From the NCBI GenBank assembly GCA_019236975.1, contig JAFAHZ010000334.1, positions 1 through 33,599 of the forward strand: a stretch of 33,599 nt of DNA. Reading direction: 5' to 3'. Position 1 is the first letter of the stretch. Every line of letters starts with the position of its first letter. The position numbers and the translations under genes are program-made. This document shows positions 1 through 33,465 of the stretch, piece by piece. Below the pieces are notes generated by a model. It worked only from the letters and a program-made list of their open reading frames with translations. It did no database searches and was not told the DNA's origin. The stretch comes from Vulcanimicrobiota bacterium. GTDB lineage: Bacteria > Vulcanimicrobiota > Vulcanimicrobiia > Vulcanimicrobiales > Vulcanimicrobiaceae.

Positions 1-944
1 AGCGTGCCGATCGCAATGCGCACTTCGGGGAGCCAGCGCTGCGGCGAGATGAAGCCTTCGATCGTACCGGCCACGATAAGCATCGATGCGACGCCGAGAA
101 TCAATGTCCCCGCTCGTCGCGCGTTGGCAGCGATGGCGTCGCGCCGCCGCATGCGACCCGGAAAGACGACGCCGGCGGCGATCAGCAGACCTGCCGCTCC
201 CGCAATCTGAACCGCCGTCAACTCGATAACGCCGTGCGGAGCGATCGTCGCCCAGAAGTCGTAGCCGAAACCGGCGTTGGTAAAGAGCGCGCCCAATCCG
301 CCCAGCATGAGGCCATTGTAGGCGATGATGTAGATCGTCAAAGCACCGAGCGTAATCGATCCGGCAAACGCGGTGATTGCGACCTTGACGTTGTTGGCGA
401 TGATCATTGCCGACATCGCCGGCGCGTAACTGCGATCGAATCCGAAGTTGGAATCGTGCAGACTCTTTCGGATTTCGTCCGGAATGAGTTCCTTGGGCAA
501 CAGCGCGTACGCCTCCGCCGGGTGCGAACGAATGAGAGCGTAGGCGACGACGGCGCACGCCACCGTGATCGCGGTGCAAATCGCGAAGTACGCAAACGAT
601 CGGCGGAACTCGTTCGGAAACGTCTGCGAGAAGAACCGCCCGAGGCGCTCGCCGCCGCTCTCCGCGGAGCTGCCGTAGACGTAAGCGTGCGCGCGCGCCG
701 TCAGGCGATTGAGATAGGTCGTGAGCGCCCCGTCGTAACCGCTGCCGCGCGCGTAGGCAAGGTCGCTGGTAACGGCGCGGTACGTGCGGCTCAGTTCTGC
801 GATTTGGGCCGCGTTCAAGCGGCGGACGCCGCGACGCGCCGCAACGTTGAGCAGCTCTTCGAGCCGATCCCAGCTCTGCTGCCTCCTGCCCACAAAAATC
901 TGCTCGCGCACCGTCGTAAACTTTGTCAACCTCCGCCCCGCCAC
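1..944 (-). CDS. SpoIIM-family (DUF95) integral membrane protein, partial
   Basis: I found this gene by reading the minus strand by hand. It has a non-ATG start and runs off the left edge, so the C-terminus is missing. About 309 codons stay open from the TTG at 929; an in-frame GTG at 944 is five codons upstream, and the true start is uncertain between them. The N-terminus contains VREQIFVGRRQQSWDRLEEL, the soluble helical head usual for SpoIIM-like proteins. Several membrane segments follow, with the family-type motifs IIANNVKVAITAFAGSITLG and APHGVIELTAVQIAGAAG. SpoIIM proteins are membrane proteins; in sporulating Firmicutes the namesake acts in engulfment, but the family is widespread in non-sporulators with unknown role. 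It is divergent from an RDD-family gene, a common pairing often found near MoxR/DUF58 genes. Family assignment is fairly sure; cellular function is not. Confidence 0.88.
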   Translation of the reverse strand, partial: MAGRRLTKFTTVREQIFVGRRQQSWDRLEELLNVAARRGVRRLNAAQIAELSRTYRAVTSDLAYARGSGYDGALTTYLNRLTARAHAYVYGSSAESGGERLGRFFSQTFPNEFRRSFAYFAICTAITVACAVVAYALIRSHPAEAYALLPKELIPDEIRKSLHDSNFGFDRSYAPAMSAMIIANNVKVAITAFAGSITLGALTIYIIAYNGLMLGGLGALFTNAGFGYDFWATIAPHGVIELTAVQIAGAAGLLIAAGVVFPGRMRRRDAIAANARRAGTLILGVASMLIVAGTIEGFISPQRWLPEVRIAIGT

Positions 945-958
945 ATGCAGAGATGGTT

Positions 959-970
959 TAGGGCGCCCTA
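959..970. promoter_or_regulatory. 12-bp perfect palindrome in divergent spoIIM/RDD gap
   Basis: TAGGGCGCCCTA is a perfect 12-bp palindrome in the 73-bp gap between the divergent SpoIIM-family and RDD genes. Its position is right for an operator serving both promoters. No clear -35/-10 pair is visible, so the regulatory role is inference. Chance occurrence is possible in GC-rich DNA. Confidence 0.3.
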
Positions 971-1017
971 GGGGAATCTTGGGGGGCGCGTAGGCTAGGC
1001 CGGAGCGCCTTTTAAAC

Positions 1018-1755
1018 ATGGATCGCGACATCGATATCCGTACGCCGGAGAGCATCGAGTTCAACTACGAGCTTGCGGGACTGGGCAGCCGTTTTCTCGC
1101 GCTCGTGGTCGACCAGGTGATTCAGATCGCCGTTCTGCTGGGCATCTTCTTTGCCATCGTCGCGGCGGCGTCGCGTCTTTCCGAGGGCCGTGCGGTCGCG
1201 GCGAGCGCCGAAGCGGAAAAGATTGGAGGCGCGATTCTCGTCGCGCTCGTCGTGATCGTCGTTTTCACGATCTTGTTCGGGTATTTCATCGCTTTCGAGG
1301 CGCTTTGGAACGGCCAGACGCCCGGGAAAAAGCTGCTCGGCATTCGGGTCGTTCGGGACGGCGGGTATCCGGTGGATTTCGGCGCGGCGCTGATTCGCAA
1401 CCTGATTCGCGTCGGCGAGTTCGCCCTCGGGTATTACCTCCTAGCCGCACTCAGTACGGTGCTGTCTCCAGAAAATAAACGCTTAGGCGACTACGCCGCC
1501 GGGACGATCGTGGTTCGCGACGCAAAACTCGGACTCGCGCGCCGTCGAGACGCGCTTATGCCGCCGGAATACGCTCCCACGCTCTATCTCAGCGGCGAGG
1601 AGCGTGCACTCATCAAACGGTTCTTAGAACGGCGCGACGTTCTCGATCCAAGCAAACGGCGAGAGCTCGCCGCGAAGCTGGCCGAACGAGTTCGCGATCG
1701 CCTGTCGCCGGAGTTGCGTCGCCTGGACCCCGAATCGCTGCTCGAACGCCTCTAG
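1018..1755 (+). CDS. RDD-family membrane protein
   Basis: The 245-residue product has an RDD domain. A first membrane helix (about residues 22-54) begins with the Arg/Asp signature in SRFLALVVDQ, and a second helix spans about 69-96. The conserved GQTPGKKLLGIRVVRDGG loop follows, then another hydrophobic segment (about 138-152) and a GDYAAGTIVV motif. The C-terminal 70 residues are charged and cytoplasmic-looking (FLERRDVLDPSKRRELAAKL). RDD proteins are small membrane proteins of mostly unknown function; some have been linked to ion or osmolyte transport. The ATG at 1018 has a GGAG about 11 bases upstream. It is divergent from the SpoIIM-family gene, and its stop lies ten bases before a palindromic repeat array. 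Family is clear, function unknown. Confidence 0.9.
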   Translation: MDRDIDIRTPESIEFNYELAGLGSRFLALVVDQVIQIAVLLGIFFAIVAAASRLSEGRAVAASAEAEKIGGAILVALVVIVVFTILFGYFIAFEALWNGQTPGKKLLGIRVVRDGGYPVDFGAALIRNLIRVGEFALGYYLLAALSTVLSPENKRLGDYAAGTIVVRDAKLGLARRRDALMPPEYAPTLYLSGEERALIKRFLERRDVLDPSKRRELAAKLAERVRDRLSPELRRLDPESLLERL

Positions 1756-1764
1756 GTTAAATCA

Positions 1765-1911
1765 GCGAGCGGGTAGCCCGCACGAGCGATTAACCTGAAA
1801 CAAAGCGAGTGCGGGCTACCCCGAGCGAAAAGCCCGCACGAGCGATTAACCTACAAACAAAGCGAGTGCGGGCTACCCCAAGCGAAATGTGCGGGCTACC
1901 CCGAGCGAAAA
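1765..1911. repeat. Palindromic repeat array (two full units plus a third right arm)
   Basis: Unit A has left arm GGTAGCCCGCAC (1772-1783), core 1784-1808 and right arm GTGCGGGCTACC (1809-1820). Unit B has a shortened left arm (1831-1839), core 1840-1865 and right arm 1866-1877. A third copy keeps only the right arm (1889-1900). Each core starts GAGCGATTAA and ends AAAGCGA, with a 25- or 26-base length. Copies are bounded by CGAGCG-type boxes (GCGAGCGG at 1765; CGAGCGAAA or AAGCGAAA after each right arm). A single copy with different arm sequence is at 33395-33459. The array fills the gap between convergent RDD and DUF697 genes and provides the last four codons and stop of the latter. It could act as a two-way terminator, a REP/BIME-like element or a protein-binding array; no transposase was seen nearby. 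Confidence 0.9.
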
Positions 1912-2879
1912 CGCGAGGCGAGCTCGCGTGCGAAGCGCATCACGTCGTTCTTCGTGCGGTCGTAGATCTGCGCGGCTTGCGTCTTGCTCATGTGCTTGCC
2001 GTGCTCCAGGAAAAACGCGACGCCTTCGCCGACGACCATCGTGCCCGCATACGCAATTGCGCCCTTGAGCGCGATACCCGCGACGGGTAAAAATCCGACC
2101 AGTTCGCGCGCGAGCGCGCGCCAGCCGAATCCCGCGCCGACGACGGGCAAAAGCTGCCAGACGCGCTGCACGTCCGGATCGCGGCCGTATGCCGCTTCGA
2201 TATGCAGCATGAGCATCGTCTGAATCCCGGTGATGGCGACCATGTCCCCGGCCGATGCGACGGCTCCGAGGACGACGCCCAGGACCGGAACGTGATCGAT
2301 GACGGCGCTCGCTATCGACACTTTGAGCGCGTTGTTGGCGGCGTCGCGCGTCAACTTGGCAGCCACCGCTTCGCGCATCGGCGGCAAGCGGCGGCCGACC
2401 GCGATTTCGACGCCGCGCGCAGCGTCGACCAGGTGCGGGAAGACGCGCCCGCGCAGCGCTTCGCGCGTCAGCGCCGGCACGACGTAGTGCCCCACCGCTC
2501 CGGGAGCGGCTGCGGAAGCGGGAACGGACGGCGCGGCGTCGGCATCCACCGCGATCGCGAAGATGGGGACCTTCAGCGCCGCAAGCGTTTCGAGCTGCGG
2601 CGAGTCGCCGCGGCGCCCGAGAAAGAGGATCGCGCGGACGTCGGCCGGGTCGTCTACGACCCCGTTGGGATAGAGCGTCTCCAAACACGCGGCGGCGTCC
2701 AGCGGGACGCTGTCGTCGGTATGGCCGGAAAGCAGCAATCCGCGCAGCTCCGAAATGAGTGCCGGATCGCCGCACAGCAGAAACCGGAACGGCCGGCGCA
2801 CGTGCGCCTGAACCGAACGAACGTCGAGCCGTTGCCGCACCATCCGAAAGAGGTCGCGGGCACCCATTGCCGTGGCCAT
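1896..2879 (-). CDS. DUF697-family membrane-associated protein with degenerate G-domain-like N-terminus
   Basis: The 327-residue product has two parts. Residues about 30-170 look like a Rossmann or G-domain fold (RPFRFLLCGDPALISELRG, later LKVPIFAIAVDADAAP). Where a P-loop GxxxxGK[S/T] would be, the sequence reads GDPALISEL, so nucleotide binding is unlikely. Residues about 185-310 match DUF697, the hydrophobic helical domain often fused to small GTPases: VIDHVPVLGVVLGAVASAG, QTMLMLHIEAAYGRD, LLPVVGAGFGWRALARELV and a final AYAGTMVVGEG helix. Start ATG 2879 has no good ribosome-binding site, and ATG 2867 is an alternative. The last four codons and TAG stop lie inside the repeat array. It is 33 bases downstream of the M48 protease gene and may be co-transcribed. 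Function unknown. Confidence 0.78.
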   Translation of the reverse strand: MATAMGARDLFRMVRQRLDVRSVQAHVRRPFRFLLCGDPALISELRGLLLSGHTDDSVPLDAAACLETLYPNGVVDDPADVRAILFLGRRGDSPQLETLAALKVPIFAIAVDADAAPSVPASAAAPGAVGHYVVPALTREALRGRVFPHLVDAARGVEIAVGRRLPPMREAVAAKLTRDAANNALKVSIASAVIDHVPVLGVVLGAVASAGDMVAITGIQTMLMLHIEAAYGRDPDVQRVWQLLPVVGAGFGWRALARELVGFLPVAGIALKGAIAYAGTMVVGEGVAFFLEHGKHMSKTQAAQIYDRTKNDVMRFARELASRFRSG

Positions 2880-2912
2880 ACTGATTTCTACCCGCCTACC
2901 GGGAGAATTGTG

Positions 2913-4967
2913 TCAGGGCAGGCCCAGTGCGGTGACGGTCTGATTGCCGTCCGAACCGCTGTGATGCAGCTCCTTGCTGGGATCGTCGGTGTAATCCAGG
3001 TATACCAGACCGAGGAAGATCTCGAGCGGCCACGCGTGCATCCCGTGGGCGTTGGCAACGTCGACGATCGACTGATCGCCGCTGCGGGCTTCGGCCACGA
3101 TCGCTTCCGGCGTGCTCTTGATGTCCGCCGCCACGATGGTCGCTACCGTTACGTCGCCGGGCGTGAGACCGTCGCGCAGCATCGTTCGATAATCGATACC
3201 CGGGGAACCGAAGCGCCGCTGCAGCGCGTACTGCAGCGTTGCATAGCGCTGCGGCGAGTTCCCTAGGCCGAGCAACGTAATGCGTGCCGATAACTGCCGC
3301 GAACGCGCGAGATTGTAGAGCTGCGATGCCTCGGACGCCGCGGTGGCAGCCGAGTTGAACTCCGTAAGGGTTTTGTTCATCACCGGCTCCAGGCCCAAAT
3401 ACTCGCTTTCCGGGATATCGCCGTTGAAGCTGAAATGAACGGTATCCAGCCGCTTGAGGAACTCGTCCAAATCCCCCACGGTTTGATCGAGCATCGTCAG
3501 CGATGCGCGCGAGGCGTCGACCGAGCGCAGCATGTCGCCGTCGGCGACCGATAACTGCGACAAGATTTGCGGATACGACGGCAGGATCGCCACGGATTCC
3601 GTCGGCACGGGAGTGACCGCCAGCGGCGCCAGCATCTCGGAGTAGATGTCCGCCGTTTCTTTGAGCAGTCCGCTTTCTTTGTTTTTCTCGAGCGATCCGA
3701 CGCCGCCGATTGCGTCGCCGGCATCTTGTAAGGCACTGTCGATAGAACGCGACATGAGCGTAAGGTTCTTGACGACCGCCTCGATCTTCGAACCGCGCTT
3801 GATGTTGACGCGGCTGAGATCGGGGATCTCGTATTCGAGGCTGTTGATGCGCGTGTTGATCGCTTTGACTTGGTCTTTTCCTTCGGCCGCGCGCGCCTGT
3901 ACTTGGGTTGCGGTGTTGACGTGCGAGGCTTGCGCCGCCTGCAGATCGCCCTGCAGCTTCGAGAGATTCGGATGGGTCAGACTGACGCGCTGCACTTCCA
4001 TTTGCCGCAGCTGTGCGATACGTAGATTGGCTTCGGCGCGCGTCTGGGCGGAGCCGAGTTGTGCGGCTTCGGCCAGCGTCTGCTCGCTCTTGCTGGTCAA
4101 CCCGAGCGCGAGGTCGGCCTGACCCTCTTCGAGCAGCGCTTCGGAGTTTTGGGGATTCTCTTTGAGGACTTCCGACAACCGCAGCGACGCGAACTCATAG
4201 CGTGCGCGCTCGAGGTCGCTCGACGCGTCGACCAGATTCTGAGACGCCGTCACGTTCTTGGGATCCAGCTCCGGATAGCCCATCAGGTGCGCCACGCGCT
4301 TTTGCGGTTCCGGATGATCTTCGAGATACTTCGTGATGAGATCGCTGTGCTCGTCGCCCATCATGCCGAGGTGCGCCATCATCGTGACCATCGCGTCGGG
4401 GTCGTAACCCGCGCGCGACATCAGCTGCAGGCCATAGCGGTCGGCTTGGTTTTCGTTCTCGCGCGACACTTTGGCCATGATCCCGGCTTCGGCCAGACCG
4501 CCGAAGTTATAGATCAGCGGCGAGAAGATCGACGCAATGCCGAACAGGATATTCAGAATCTGCGCCTTGGAGTTCGCGGTAATCACGTGGCGGCGCTCGA
4601 TGTGACCGGTTTCGTGTCCGATCACGCTCGCCAGCTCGTCGTCGGACTGGACGAAATCGACGAGCCCCTCGTTGATGTAGACGAAACCCCCCATCGTTGC
4701 AAACGAGTTGATTTCGTTATCCTTGAGAACCTTGACGGAGTAGGGCAAGTCTTTACGGGCGACCTGGTTCCACAAGTTCTCGGCGATGCCGGAGACGTAC
4801 GCGTTCAGCAGAGGGTCGGTTTCGACGACGCTGCTTTGCACGATTTGCTGATCCTCTTGCTGGCCGAGTGCGATCTCGGCCGCGGTCGACATCGCCAGCG
4901 ATCGCGCCGGCAATGCGGCTGCAATCAAAGCGACGATGACGAATGCGTTGACGGTGCGGCGCAACAT
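2913..4967 (-). CDS. Secreted M48-family zinc metalloprotease with long C-terminal coiled-coil region
   Basis: The 684-residue product starts with a signal peptide (basic MLRRTVNAF, hydrophobic core, ALPARSLA). The M48 domain has the zinc site HETGH (about residues 118-122) and the third ligand in ENQAD (Glu about 172), so it should be active. Architecture resembles BepA/YfgC-type periplasmic proteases involved in outer-membrane protein quality control. After a TPR-like stretch (about 250-330) there is a long helical, Ala/Gln/Glu-rich region and a C-terminal domain I do not recognise; BepA itself is about 490 residues, so this protein is long. Start choice: the ATG at 4967 has AGGAG four bases upstream (4972-4976), whereas the ATG at 4982 has none. 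It is divergent from minC with a 46-base gap. Confidence 0.88.
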   Translation of the reverse strand: MLRRTVNAFVIVALIAAALPARSLAMSTAAEIALGQQEDQQIVQSSVVETDPLLNAYVSGIAENLWNQVARKDLPYSVKVLKDNEINSFATMGGFVYINEGLVDFVQSDDELASVIGHETGHIERRHVITANSKAQILNILFGIASIFSPLIYNFGGLAEAGIMAKVSRENENQADRYGLQLMSRAGYDPDAMVTMMAHLGMMGDEHSDLITKYLEDHPEPQKRVAHLMGYPELDPKNVTASQNLVDASSDLERARYEFASLRLSEVLKENPQNSEALLEEGQADLALGLTSKSEQTLAEAAQLGSAQTRAEANLRIAQLRQMEVQRVSLTHPNLSKLQGDLQAAQASHVNTATQVQARAAEGKDQVKAINTRINSLEYEIPDLSRVNIKRGSKIEAVVKNLTLMSRSIDSALQDAGDAIGGVGSLEKNKESGLLKETADIYSEMLAPLAVTPVPTESVAILPSYPQILSQLSVADGDMLRSVDASRASLTMLDQTVGDLDEFLKRLDTVHFSFNGDIPESEYLGLEPVMNKTLTEFNSAATAASEASQLYNLARSRQLSARITLLGLGNSPQRYATLQYALQRRFGSPGIDYRTMLRDGLTPGDVTVATIVAADIKSTPEAIVAEARSGDQSIVDVANAHGMHAWPLEIFLGLVYLDYTDDPSKELHHSGSDGNQTVTALGLP

Positions 4968-6731: not shown

Positions 6732-7577
6732 ATGCATCAACTGCAGCCTTCGTTCGAAGGGGCGGCGTCCGAACCGGTGCGCCGCTTGGGACGCGCGATC
6801 GTCGTGACGTCCGGCAAGGGCGGCGTCGGTAAGACGACGACGACCGCGAACCTGGGAACCGCGCTCGCGCAGCGCGGGGTCTCGGTCGCGCTGGTCGACG
6901 CCGACGTCGGTTTACGCAATCTCGACATCGTGCTCGGGCTGGAGAACCGCATCAAGCATCACCTGCTCGACGTGCTCGAAGAGCGCGTGACGCTGGACGA
7001 AGCGCTCGTACCCGACAAGCACAGCGACCGACTGGTGCTGCTCGCCGCCGCGCAAGCGCGCGAAAAAGACGAGGTCGACACGGAAAAGATGCGCGCGCTC
7101 ATCGCGTCACTGCGCGAGCGATACGAGTACGTCCTAATCGACTGCCCCGCGGGCATCGAGCTCGGTTTTCGTAACGCCGTCGCCGGCGCGGACGAAGCGA
7201 TCGTGGTCTGTACGCCCGAAGTGTCGGCCGTGCGCGACGTCGATCGCGTCGTCGGCTTGCTCGGCAACCGCTTCCGTCCGCAGCTCGTGATTAACCGGCT
7301 GCGCCCGCAGCTCGTGAAAAAAGGCAAGATGCTTTCGGTCGACGACGTCAACGCGATTTTGCGCTTGCCGCTGCTTGGCGTGATTGCCGACGAGCCGGAG
7401 ATTATCGTTACGACGAATAAGGGCGAGCCGCTGGCGCTGCGCAAAGACGCGCCGACGGGGGCCGCCTATCACGCCATCGCTGCGCGCATCGCCGGCGACG
7501 ACGTACCGCCACCGATGCCGGCGACGAAAGAGTCGTTTCTCGAGCGGCTCGGGTCGATGTTCGGAGGGAAGAAATGA
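6732..7577 (+). CDS. minD: Septum site-determining ATPase MinD, second tandem copy
   Basis: This 281-residue paralogue follows minD-1 by three bases. An extra 20-residue N-terminus (HQLQPSFEGAASEPVRRLGR) precedes the deviant Walker A SGKGGVGKTT (residues 27-36, signature Lys29). Switch motifs DADVGLRNLD and IDCPAGIELGFRNAVAG are intact. The C-terminal helix SFLERLGSMFGGKK is close to the classical MinD membrane-targeting sequence, closer than that of copy 1. The two copies share all motifs but differ widely elsewhere, so the duplication is not recent. The ATGA at 7574-7577 couples it to minE. The N-terminal extension is unusual for MinD; the ATG at 6732 is the only ATG before the Walker motif, though GTG starts are possible. 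Confidence 0.94.
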   Translation: MHQLQPSFEGAASEPVRRLGRAIVVTSGKGGVGKTTTTANLGTALAQRGVSVALVDADVGLRNLDIVLGLENRIKHHLLDVLEERVTLDEALVPDKHSDRLVLLAAAQAREKDEVDTEKMRALIASLRERYEYVLIDCPAGIELGFRNAVAGADEAIVVCTPEVSAVRDVDRVVGLLGNRFRPQLVINRLRPQLVKKGKMLSVDDVNAILRLPLLGVIADEPEIIVTTNKGEPLALRKDAPTGAAYHAIAARIAGDDVPPPMPATKESFLERLGSMFGGKK

Positions 7578-8038
7578 TCGATTTTCTCAAGCGGCTGTTC
7601 GGTCAAACCGGCTCCAGCGCGACCGCCAAAGAGCGGCTGCGCTTGGTGCTGATGACCGACCATCTCGAACTAGCTCCGGACATGATCGACGCGATGAAAC
7701 GGGATCTCGTCGACGTCATCTCTCGTTACGTCGAAGTCGATCGCGATCGAATCGAAGTGAACTTCGAGCAACAGGACCGGGCGCTCGCCATGCTTGCGAA
7801 CATCCCGATTCTTTCGGTCAACCGGCCGCCGGTTAACCGGGCCGGTAACGGCAACGGCAACGGCAACGGCCACGGCAGAGCGGCGGAGCCCGCGCAGGCT
7901 GCAGCCGTCGCGGCCGCGCCGAACGTGTCGTCGCCCGGCGCCCAAGCGGCCACCGACAGTATCGTGACGCGCCGCCGGCGCCGCAGAAAGAAAAACCAGT
8001 CGATCCCGGCAGGGGCAAAACCGGCGACCGCGCATTAA
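7574..8038 (+). CDS. minE: Cell division topological specificity factor MinE, with long basic C-terminal tail
   Basis: MinE stimulates MinD ATPase and restricts MinCD to the poles. Of 154 residues, the first 80 or so are canonical: amphipathic N-terminus MIDFLKRLFGQTG, anti-MinCD segment AKERLRLVLMTDHLELAP, and dimerisation region DVISRYVEVDRDRIEVNFE. Typical MinE is about 80-100 residues. The remaining 70 are low-complexity: a Gly-Asn run (GNGNGNGNGHG) from hexanucleotide repeats, an Ala/Pro stretch, then a cluster of Arg and Lys (TRRRRRRKKNQS) and a short end. The basic tail might bind membrane, RNA or another protein; that is inference. Coupled by ATGA to minD-2. Confidence 0.92.
   Translation: MIDFLKRLFGQTGSSATAKERLRLVLMTDHLELAPDMIDAMKRDLVDVISRYVEVDRDRIEVNFEQQDRALAMLANIPILSVNRPPVNRAGNGNGNGNGHGRAAEPAQAAAVAAAPNVSSPGAQAATDSIVTRRRRRRKKNQSIPAGAKPATAH
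7844..7873 (+). repeat. Hexanucleotide tandem repeat (GGCAAC-type) inside minE
   Basis: Five consecutive hexamers, GGTAAC, GGCAAC, GGCAAC, GGCAAC and GGCCAC, encode the Gly-Asn run of the MinE tail. Because the unit is six bases, copy-number change would alter tail length without a frameshift. Length variation between strains is predicted, not shown. Confidence 0.85.
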
Positions 8039-32220: not shown

Positions 32221-33465
32221 TTAATGAAGGCGGGGGGCCGGGTCAACTGGTTTGCCGTTAATTCGGACCTCGAAGTGCAGATGCGGGCCCGTCGACTGCC
32301 CGGTGGACCCGACGGCGCCGATGGCCTGCCCGCGCGTAACGGTCTGACCCGACGACACGTAGATGGCGGAGAGGTGACCGTAACCGGTCGAGTAGCCGCC
32401 CCCATGGTCGATGAGAATGTAGTTGCCGTACCCCCCGTACCACTGCGCCATGATCACGGTGCCGCCGGCGGCCGCGGCGACCGTCGTTCCGGTCGGCGCT
32501 GCGATGTCCAGGCCCTGATGAAACTCGGGGGAGCCGCCGAAGGGGTTCGAGCGCCAGCCAAAGGGCGAGGTAATCGTTCCGGTTACCGGCCACGAGAAGC
32601 TTCCGGGTCCGCCGGCGCTCTCGACGCCGCCGGAGATGCCGGCGGCGCGACGCTGCGCCTCAAGCTCTCGCTCGCGTTCGCGGATCAGCGACTCGAGCTC
32701 CGCCTCCTCGGCCGCCGACAGGTCTTCCATTTCGGCGACCTGCGCGGCGACGTGCCGGCGCTGCTGTCCCGCAAGTTCGACCAAGTTCGCGCGTTCGGAA
32801 GCCAGCGAGTCCAGTTGACTGCGCGCCTGTTGCTGCTCTTCTTGCTGCGCCGCGAGCTGCAGCCGCGTGCGTTCCAAATCGGCTTCGACGGAAGCCACGC
32901 GCTGCTCCGCGGCCTTGCGCGCGCGAATCGCGCGCTCGTTAGCGGCGATGAGCAGGCGTAAATCCTCCCAGCGCTCCACGAACTCGCTGAACGAACGTAC
33001 CGAAATCAGAACGTTGAGATAGCTTAAGTCGCCGTTTTCGTAAATGTTGACCAGCCGGCGCTTCAGCAGTTCGTCGTGGAGGGCCAGCGATTTCTTGGCC
33101 GCGTCGAGCTGAACCGTGTTCCAATCGATCTTGCGCTGCGTCGAATCGGCCTGCGTTTGCAAATCGCCGATCCTCCCGTTGACCACGCCGATTGCGGCAT
33201 TGGTCTCGCCCAGCTGATGCTGCAAATCGTTGTACCGCAGCGTCACCGTCCCCAGCTCCGCGCGCTTGGATTGCAGCCGCGCTTGTATCTGCGCCGCCTT
33301 CTCTTTCTCAGCCCGAATTCGAGCGTCGATCGAAGTCTGCGCGACGGCCCCGTGGGGAAGTGCCGTTAACGCAAAGACGATCGCCAACGAGATCGCGAGC
33401 GGGTGTTTCTCCCGAGCGATTAAACATAGAAAAAAGCGAGGGAGAAACACTCCGAGCGATCTCAC
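32221..33465 (-). CDS. M23-family peptidoglycan endopeptidase with coiled coil (EnvC/NlpD-like)
   Basis: The product (about 414 residues) has a signal peptide ending LTALPHGAVAQ, a long coiled coil (about 45-265, Glu/Gln/Arg-rich) and a LytM/M23 domain: SPFGWRSNPFGG, EFHQGLDIAAP (zinc His and Asp), GHLSAIYVSSGQ and PHLHFEV (zinc/catalytic His). EnvC-like proteins regulate or perform wall cleavage at division, often with FtsEX; no ftsEX is seen here. Start is uncertain. GTG 33465 lies eight bases after the upstream stop; ATG 33525 is in frame but deep inside the upstream gene. The palindromic repeat at 33395-33459 is read through here and encodes the first part of the signal peptide. Confidence 0.88.
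   Translation of the reverse strand: MRSLGVFLPRFFLCLIAREKHPLAISLAIVFALTALPHGAVAQTSIDARIRAEKEKAAQIQARLQSKRAELGTVTLRYNDLQHQLGETNAAIGVVNGRIGDLQTQADSTQRKIDWNTVQLDAAKKSLALHDELLKRRLVNIYENGDLSYLNVLISVRSFSEFVERWEDLRLLIAANERAIRARKAAEQRVASVEADLERTRLQLAAQQEEQQQARSQLDSLASERANLVELAGQQRRHVAAQVAEMEDLSAAEEAELESLIRERERELEAQRRAAGISGGVESAGGPGSFSWPVTGTITSPFGWRSNPFGGSPEFHQGLDIAAPTGTTVAAAAGGTVIMAQWYGGYGNYILIDHGGGYSTGYGHLSAIYVSSGQTVTRGQAIGAVGSTGQSTGPHLHFEVRINGKPVDPAPRLH
33395..33459. repeat. Single copy of the palindromic repeat with different arms
   Basis: Outer GCGAGCGG and left arm GTGTTTCTCCC (33403-33413) precede a 26-base core (33414-33439) that starts GAGCGATTAA and ends AAAGCGA. The right arm is GGGAGAAACAC (33440-33450), followed by TCCGAGCGA. 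Core and outer boxes match the 1765-1911 array, but the arms share no sequence with it and still pair perfectly. An extra outer pairing (GAGATCGC with GCGATCTC) exists at this copy only. It overlaps the 5' end of the M23 gene. Confidence 0.88.

Follow-up and report, generated by a model that had tools for sequence, protein, structure and literature searches.

The described elements closest to the locus analyzed here are palindromes and folded strands found between or within genes. Rickettsia palindromic elements are inserted in frame in protein genes, and attC sites follow the stop codons of cassettes and carry two boxes, R'' (RYYYAAC) and R' (GTTRRRY), at their two ends. The attC sites are reported to be poorly conserved in sequence, with the folded bottom strand serving as the substrate (PMC2727003), and REP sequences are described, in the cases studied, as being recognized on one strand through the loop or through mismatches (PMC8266576). 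Repetitive hairpin-forming elements have also been reported from sponge mitochondria, as scattered gap insertions of patchy distribution (PMC2800124). Here we describe a short repeat array between two convergent genes of a Vulcanimicrobiota bacterium, and the hairpin family to which it belongs.

A repeat array in a convergent gap

The window, i.e. the whole stretch of DNA analyzed (33,599 nt), corresponds to the entire contig C181; the draft genome to which it belongs measures 3.19 Mb. Near its start, a plus-strand gene for an RDD-family membrane protein (1018..1755; Pfam PF06271, 87 bits, E 1.9e-24) converges with a minus-strand gene for a conserved protein without a named family (1896..2879), and the two stops lie 140 bases apart (1756-1895). 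A sequence-only reading had described this gap as occupied by a repeat array, and the array, at 1763-1910, does lie inside and over it. The 3' end of the minus-strand gene reads GCC TCG CGT TTT CGC TCG GGG TAG, of which the final TTT CGC TCG GGG and the stop TAG sit within a third, partial repeat; the array thus encodes the FRSG terminus and stop, as had been proposed. The gap was also correctly singled out as the only non-overlapping convergent one of the window, the four remaining convergent pairs overlapping by 103, 22, 46 and 37 bp in gene calls made by simple codon-usage scoring with the window as training set, a method blind to tRNA genes. The label DUF697 given to the minus-strand protein is unconfirmed: the protein matches nothing in Pfam at E<=0.001 (the best entry being EcsC, E 0.21) and nothing in NCBIfam at E<=1. 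It has a relative in 37 of the 38 genomes searched, its own included. TRF finds two more short tandem repeats in the window, at 7266-7317 and 7843-7877, with 27-base and 6-base units.

The array combines a complete copy of a dispersed hairpin of about 68 nt with two incomplete ones. The complete copy (1763..1830, plus strand, GA orientation) scores 86.3 bits (genome-wide E 3.6e-19) against R1, the covariance model described below, and is one of the 14 copies that built that model. On the plus strand it comprises an outer motif GCGAGC (1765-1770), a left arm GGGTAGCCCGCAC (1771-1783), an inner motif and loop CGAGCGATTAACCTGAAACAAAGCGAG (1783-1809), a right arm GTGCGGGCTACCC (1809-1821) that is complementary to the left at 13 of 13 positions, and an outer motif CGAGC (1822-1826). 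The second copy (1831..1887, plus strand; R1 42.2 bits, model positions 13-56) is without the outer-left motif and the start of the left arm, and the third (1889..1910, plus strand) retains only the right arm and outer motif (GTGCGGGCTACCCCGAGCGAAA), an exact match to the repeat pattern. TRF assigns these copies periods of 57 (1775-1887, 94% matches) and 23 (1866-1910, 95%), respectively. An inverted copy may have left a remnant, AGGTTAAATC, on the minus strand at 1754..1763; its reverse complement resembles the loop letters GATTAACCT, and the match is weak (70% complementary over 20 nt).

Chance does not account for the array, because its fold is more stable than those of shuffled sequences and its loop pattern is absent from them. 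Over 160 nt, the plus strand folds with z = -5.6 (none of 200 shuffles being equally stable) and the minus strand with z = -2.8 (2 of 200), and the loop pattern, present three times in the window, is missing from 100 of 100 shuffles. A second window locus of the hairpin family lies at 33393..33461 (plus strand, R1 85.6 bits) between two minus-strand genes; it lies 11 nt past the stop of the upstream gene and bears an added outer stem.

Form, distribution and probable gain and loss of the hairpin

A DNA search of the source genome with the array returned scattered, partly alike hairpins. Fourteen of these copies, aligned without structural help, share the form GCGAGC-GGGT-stem-CGAGCGATTAA.C....AGCGAG-stem'-ACCC-CGAGC. 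The loop (CGAGCGATTAA-C....AGCGAG) is nearly fixed. It rests on a C-GA-G/C-GA-G step, which frequently recurs at the base of the hairpin; C-GA-G opposite C-GA-G forms a stable tandem G.A step in both DNA and RNA. Stem letters differ between copies yet pair: among the 14 copies, 97.6% of cells pair and 12 of 18 pairs show both-sided changes. The covariation score is 0.477; shuffles give 0.152, none of 500 attaining the observed value, and sliding the partner by 1-3 columns gives at most 0.124. The model R1 was built from these 14 copies.

In the source genome, R1 gives 21 matches at E<=0.01, or about 18 loci once the two rows of the array and two loci each present on two contigs are merged. At the same threshold it matches 6 of 60 genomes (the source included), the lone match outside the taxonomic family being weak (E 0.006). 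At E<=0.001, carriers make up 24 of the 99 genomes of that family and represent 6 of its 38 genera, the richest genome having 20 matches, and in a 149-genome sample of the phylum its 23 carriers at E<=1e-4 all fall inside the family, with no genome outside it matching. Carriage is patchy inside genera, with 7 of the 18 genomes of genus g36 being carriers (one of them, G064, doubtful). In genus g25, each of the 7 species searched has 3 to 14 matches. The single copy of G064, counted among the 24 carriers, is nearly letter-for-letter that of the source bin (G000); L064 (G000) and L214 (G064) stand on near-identical contigs in the two bins, with copy flanks 98-100% alike, and the G064 copy may be a binning error. 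In genus g24, clusters are dense and mixed in orientation, with five copies in G079 (L300, 8906-9596) and two in G084 (L301), downstream of recA-/recX-like genes named by eye. The window copy and a copy on contig C211 have common stem letters and unlike flanks. The exact loop letters were not found in viral contigs, and a search of the open-access literature, phylum name included, returned no title or abstract describing the hairpin repeat.

The congener G001, which has 3 R1 matches genome-wide, was compared at 11 loci of the source genome. It is element-free with both flanks aligned at L045, L046, L053, L056 and L061, and it shows no element at L054, L055, L057, L058 and L064, where the bases beside the site align badly (the left flank not being located at L054 and L057). 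Losses also occur: G001 has half an element at one of the 11 loci (L048), and L052/L073 is filled in both species by a full copy whose stem letters differ. By eye, the stop in element-free G001 matches in position, exactly or to within one codon, at L045, L056, L058 and L061, and CGAGC, which occurs twice around the L045 element, is present once in the empty site. On grounds of parsimony, as relatives G002-G024 have no R1 match, some copies would have been gained in this lineage.

The hairpin is also present in a coding sequence. Relative to G001, in which the positions of query residues 437 and 473 are 3 nt apart, the carB gene on contig C316 of the source genome has about 35 extra codons inserted in frame; the sequence of other relatives is likewise shorter at this point. 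The hairpin, at 3191-3259 of C316 (L050/L135), is missing from a second carB of the same bin on contig C288 (L134): C288 reads GTCGCTCG-CTCTGG where C316 reads GTCGCTCG, 57 nt ending in GCTCG, and CTCTGG, and C288 retains part of the remaining insert. This core enzyme gene tolerates an in-frame hairpin. Co-binned contig pairs such as these, which carry differing versions of one locus, suggest that the draft genome mixes two related strains; L048 and L051 form such a pair, and L059/L060 represent a single locus found on two contigs. The window copy at 33393-33461 and L051 (contig C162, 181-249), co-binned forms of one locus, have nearly the same loop, four paired stem differences and outer stems that are wholly different.

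At the RDD junction itself, the gap is -48 to +57 bases in 21 of the 25 records from relatives in which both genes could be measured and 390-887 bases in the other 4, the records coming from two sources that share genomes and representing fewer than 25 species. The minus-strand protein of relatives terminates no more than about 5 residues from the end at residue 327 (numbering of the source protein). These near-closed gaps and similar protein ends indicate that the array took the place of just the final few codons and brought a new stop near the old one, in support of the earlier suggestion that it had inserted over the 3' end of the minus-strand gene, for which just this comparison of C-termini and gaps had been advised. 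In G001 the minus-strand gene has a different convergent neighbor and the array is absent. At L106 (G014, another genus), the RDD junction has a gap of 57 bases with, by eye, a different inverted repeat.

The folded strand and its place at gene ends

Stems that tolerate G.T and do not tolerate A.C on a given strand point to that strand as the one whose fold is kept. Among the matches listed, the first nine pairs of 105 distinct arms (copies with repeated arms or an unparsed motif dropped) comprise 856 standard, 55 G.T, 9 A.C and 25 other combinations, and the 59 distinct arms with exact loop letters comprise 461, 36, 6 and 28, respectively. Folding favors the GA strand in 132 of 140 copies under RNA parameters and in 129 of 140 under DNA parameters, again among the matches listed; such counts carry a bias, since R1 favors G.U over A.C and every copy was initially detected by R1 or by DNA similarity. 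The loop-closing pair has changed on both sides, from G-C to A-T, in 10 of the 126 parsed copies among the matches listed, 19 unparsed rows being left out of the loop-letter tally.

Comparison of orthologous copies gives a sharper view. Flanks sort the loci, among the matches listed, into 29 cross-species sets. Counted over all cross-genome pairs of these ortholog groups, without a flank-identity filter, one-sided changes gave rise to G.T 53 times (31 against G-C, 22 against A-T) and to A.C once. A one-way mutation bias, e.g. cytosine loss, is alone insufficient because G.T arises against both G-C and A-T, and from the 53:1 excess the GA-rich strand seems to be the one kept for its fold. When comparisons are limited to pairs whose better flank is at least 70% alike (n=47), arms diverge on average only slightly faster than flanks, mean identities being 81% for flanks (better side), 76% for arms and 83% for loops, and arm identity in single comparisons ranges from 40% to 100%. 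Out of 470 stem positions, 334 are unchanged; the 136 changed ones include 80 both-sided paired changes and 45 one-sided wobbles, so that 125 still pair, and 11 unpaired changes (6 one-sided, 5 two-sided), with the qualification that pairwise counts may register one change repeatedly and orthologous loci are not independent. Homogenization between loci would lead to common stem letters; each locus instead mostly pairs with its own letters.

Palindromes free of any function could also stay perfect through template switching between their arms during replication, a process reported to homogenize inverted-repeat arms (PMC8604942). The arms of the hairpin do change together, and at one locus the outer stems are wholly different, as such copying would produce; however, an excess of wobbles on one strand, from G-C and A-T alike, is not expected of arm-to-arm copying, and loop letters remain near-constant while stems change. 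We regard this explanation as distinctly improbable.

Placement was analyzed in 145 copies from 24 genomes, compiled from earlier finds and from 100 regions fetched around copies elsewhere; they are the earlier copies plus those among the matches listed, and the hairpin family numbers at least 145. Among the matches listed, 126 of the 145 lie outside called ORFs and 19 inside. With 29 copies set aside because they fall within an ORF or adjoin an open contig end, 116 intergenic copies among the matches listed remain, of which 51 have a stop codon within 12 nt (9% under uniform insertion) and 18 lie in divergent gaps (38.5% predicted), the control consisting of element-free gaps from stretches of G102, G099, G079, G084 and G067 and from the window only. 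The nearest boundary of these 116 is a stop with the GA strand antisense in 62 cases, a stop with the GA strand sense in 18 and a start in 36. In tandem contexts (73 copies among the matches listed), the GA strand is antisense 49 times and sense 24 times (p 0.005, uncorrected for shared ancestry); the bias is thus two to one in the larger set, weaker than in the source genome, where all 7 of 7 tandem-context copies are antisense. At five loci examined with ARAGORN, a tRNA-Leu, a tRNA-Gln and a tRNA-Leu end 6, 1 and 4 nt before L076, L079 and L220, respectively; the GA strand is antisense in all three copies, and L076 and L220 are orthologous. Head-to-head pairs of copies, minus then plus, occur in seven genomes among the matches listed, some being the same locus in two species. 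As to the replication strand, GC skew was taken in 20 windows (20 kb each, from G102 and G099) holding 23 copies. In 16 of 23 the GA strand coincides with the strand of negative skew (two-sided binomial 0.09), a weak bias that gene direction would equally give; insertion may nevertheless be linked to replication.

Such placement might reflect a two-way transcription terminator, as the sequence-only reading had offered for the array, or a stabilizer of mRNA 3' ends between convergent genes. The hairpins are stable on both strands, and copies favor stop codons, with three just past tRNA genes; stem-loops and REPs are reported to gather after stops in many bacteria (PMC1590033). Against termination, a T-tract near the hairpin end is present in only 9 of 145 copies after the GA strand and 13 of 145 after the other strand, among the matches listed. 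Within the array, the plus strand has no 8-base window with 5 T, such windows on the minus strand sit in loops or between units, and a terminator scan of window positions 1-4000 reports no site at 1754-1910. An ordinary terminator shape is, by eye, present in the same genome at L057. Furthermore, pairing is kept on the strand that is mostly antisense to the touching gene, and the mRNA there has A.C where the other strand has G.T. We consider a terminator or stabilizer unlikely, and the earlier reading was half right: insertion at a gene end holds, and the two-way terminator, with T-tracts rare and the kept fold mostly antisense, is not supported.

The kept GA strand might instead be transcribed, as a small structured RNA family or a set of RNA motifs. 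Compensatory evolution through G.U intermediates and nearly fixed loop letters are what such an RNA would show. However, Rfam yields no window match at curated score and nothing convincing at seven element loci, which give only sub-threshold hits and nothing usable at permissive thresholds, and both neighbors are antisense to the GA strand in 49 of 116 closed contexts among the matches listed. The carB copy, moreover, is in frame, and congener sites are without the element. One consensus scan for a promoter of a GA-strand RNA, covering the window start, found none. A structured RNA is, in our estimate, also an unlikely reading.

Comparison with known palindromic elements

The hairpin is absent at several congener loci, favors stops beyond uniform insertion, and has its GA-strand pairing kept copy by copy. 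The array is probably a locally reiterated copy of a dispersed palindromic element, specific to the taxonomic family, that has spread and been kept as a folded GA strand. The congener absences would on this reading be gains in the present lineage, with the element spreading as a folded single strand recognized through its loop and GA steps, in a REP-like manner yet presumably by some other enzyme. Landing just past stops may mean that few other sites are tolerated in compact genomes, or that stops are targeted, and retention at gene ends would come from some use of the folded GA strand. At the window junction, the element would have inserted where the convergent genes left almost no space, taking the place of the final codons of the minus-strand gene, with a partial tandem duplication following afterwards. 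A more far-reaching proposal, which we put forward only tentatively, is that this is a new kind of dispersed element, in which a folded and mostly antisense strand is selected at 3' ends, the loop and GA steps are read by a protein, the stem changes pair by pair with species divergence, and single-strand spread is driven by something other than a Y1 enzyme. If the preferred reading is right, the element would owe its retention to its shape, on the strand opposite to the majority of neighboring messages, and would be datable locus by locus. Genus g25 offers a natural experiment on the spread and retention of palindromes, and the family as a whole cautions against taking every hairpin behind a stop codon for a terminator.

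Among described elements, MITEs, which combine conserved terminal inverted repeats with target-site duplication, offer a first comparison: the inverted arms of the hairpin are not conserved in sequence, and CGAGC direct repeats flank many units. CGAGC is single in the empty L045 and C288 carB sites, the only places where this was seen against an empty site, and GA steps stand at both ends of 71 of 145 copies among the matches listed; the direct repeat could be structure rather than target duplication. The sponge mitochondrial elements resemble the hairpin in being scattered in gaps with patchy occurrence; they belong to organelle genomes, and the abstract of that report (PMC2800124) makes no mention of strand-specific pairing. 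Rickettsia palindromic elements share with the carB copy an in-frame palindrome; however, copies of the hairpin are mostly intergenic (126 of 145 among the matches listed) and their stem letters vary. The attC sites are alike in their weakly conserved sequence and folded strand, and they differ in that the neighbors of the hairpin, e.g. carB, are core genes and not cassettes; R'' and R' boxes occur together in 0 of the 145 copies among the matches listed.

REP/BIME sequences with their TnpA_REP (RAYT) transposase share the most with the hairpin, both being short dispersed hairpins near stops, sometimes in inverted pairs, and both being palindromes of mostly noncoding location (126 of 145 copies outside ORFs among the matches listed). 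In REPs the stem letters are conserved, whereas in the hairpin family they vary, and GTAG stands 5' of the hairpin in only 2 of 145 copies on the GA strand and 14 of 145 on the other, among the matches listed. The Y1 transposase (TnpA_REP, PF01797) was detected in 0 of 24 carriers and in 4 of 75 non-carriers, many of these genomes being incomplete, and no transposase was recognized by eye around the densest cluster (the five copies of G079, from the recX-like gene to a response regulator). Because GTAG and the Y1 transposase are missing, we do not file the hairpin family as REP. If the preferred reading above is right, the family would represent a REP-like palindrome that dispenses with the signature letters and transposase of REPs, which nonetheless remain its closest parallel.
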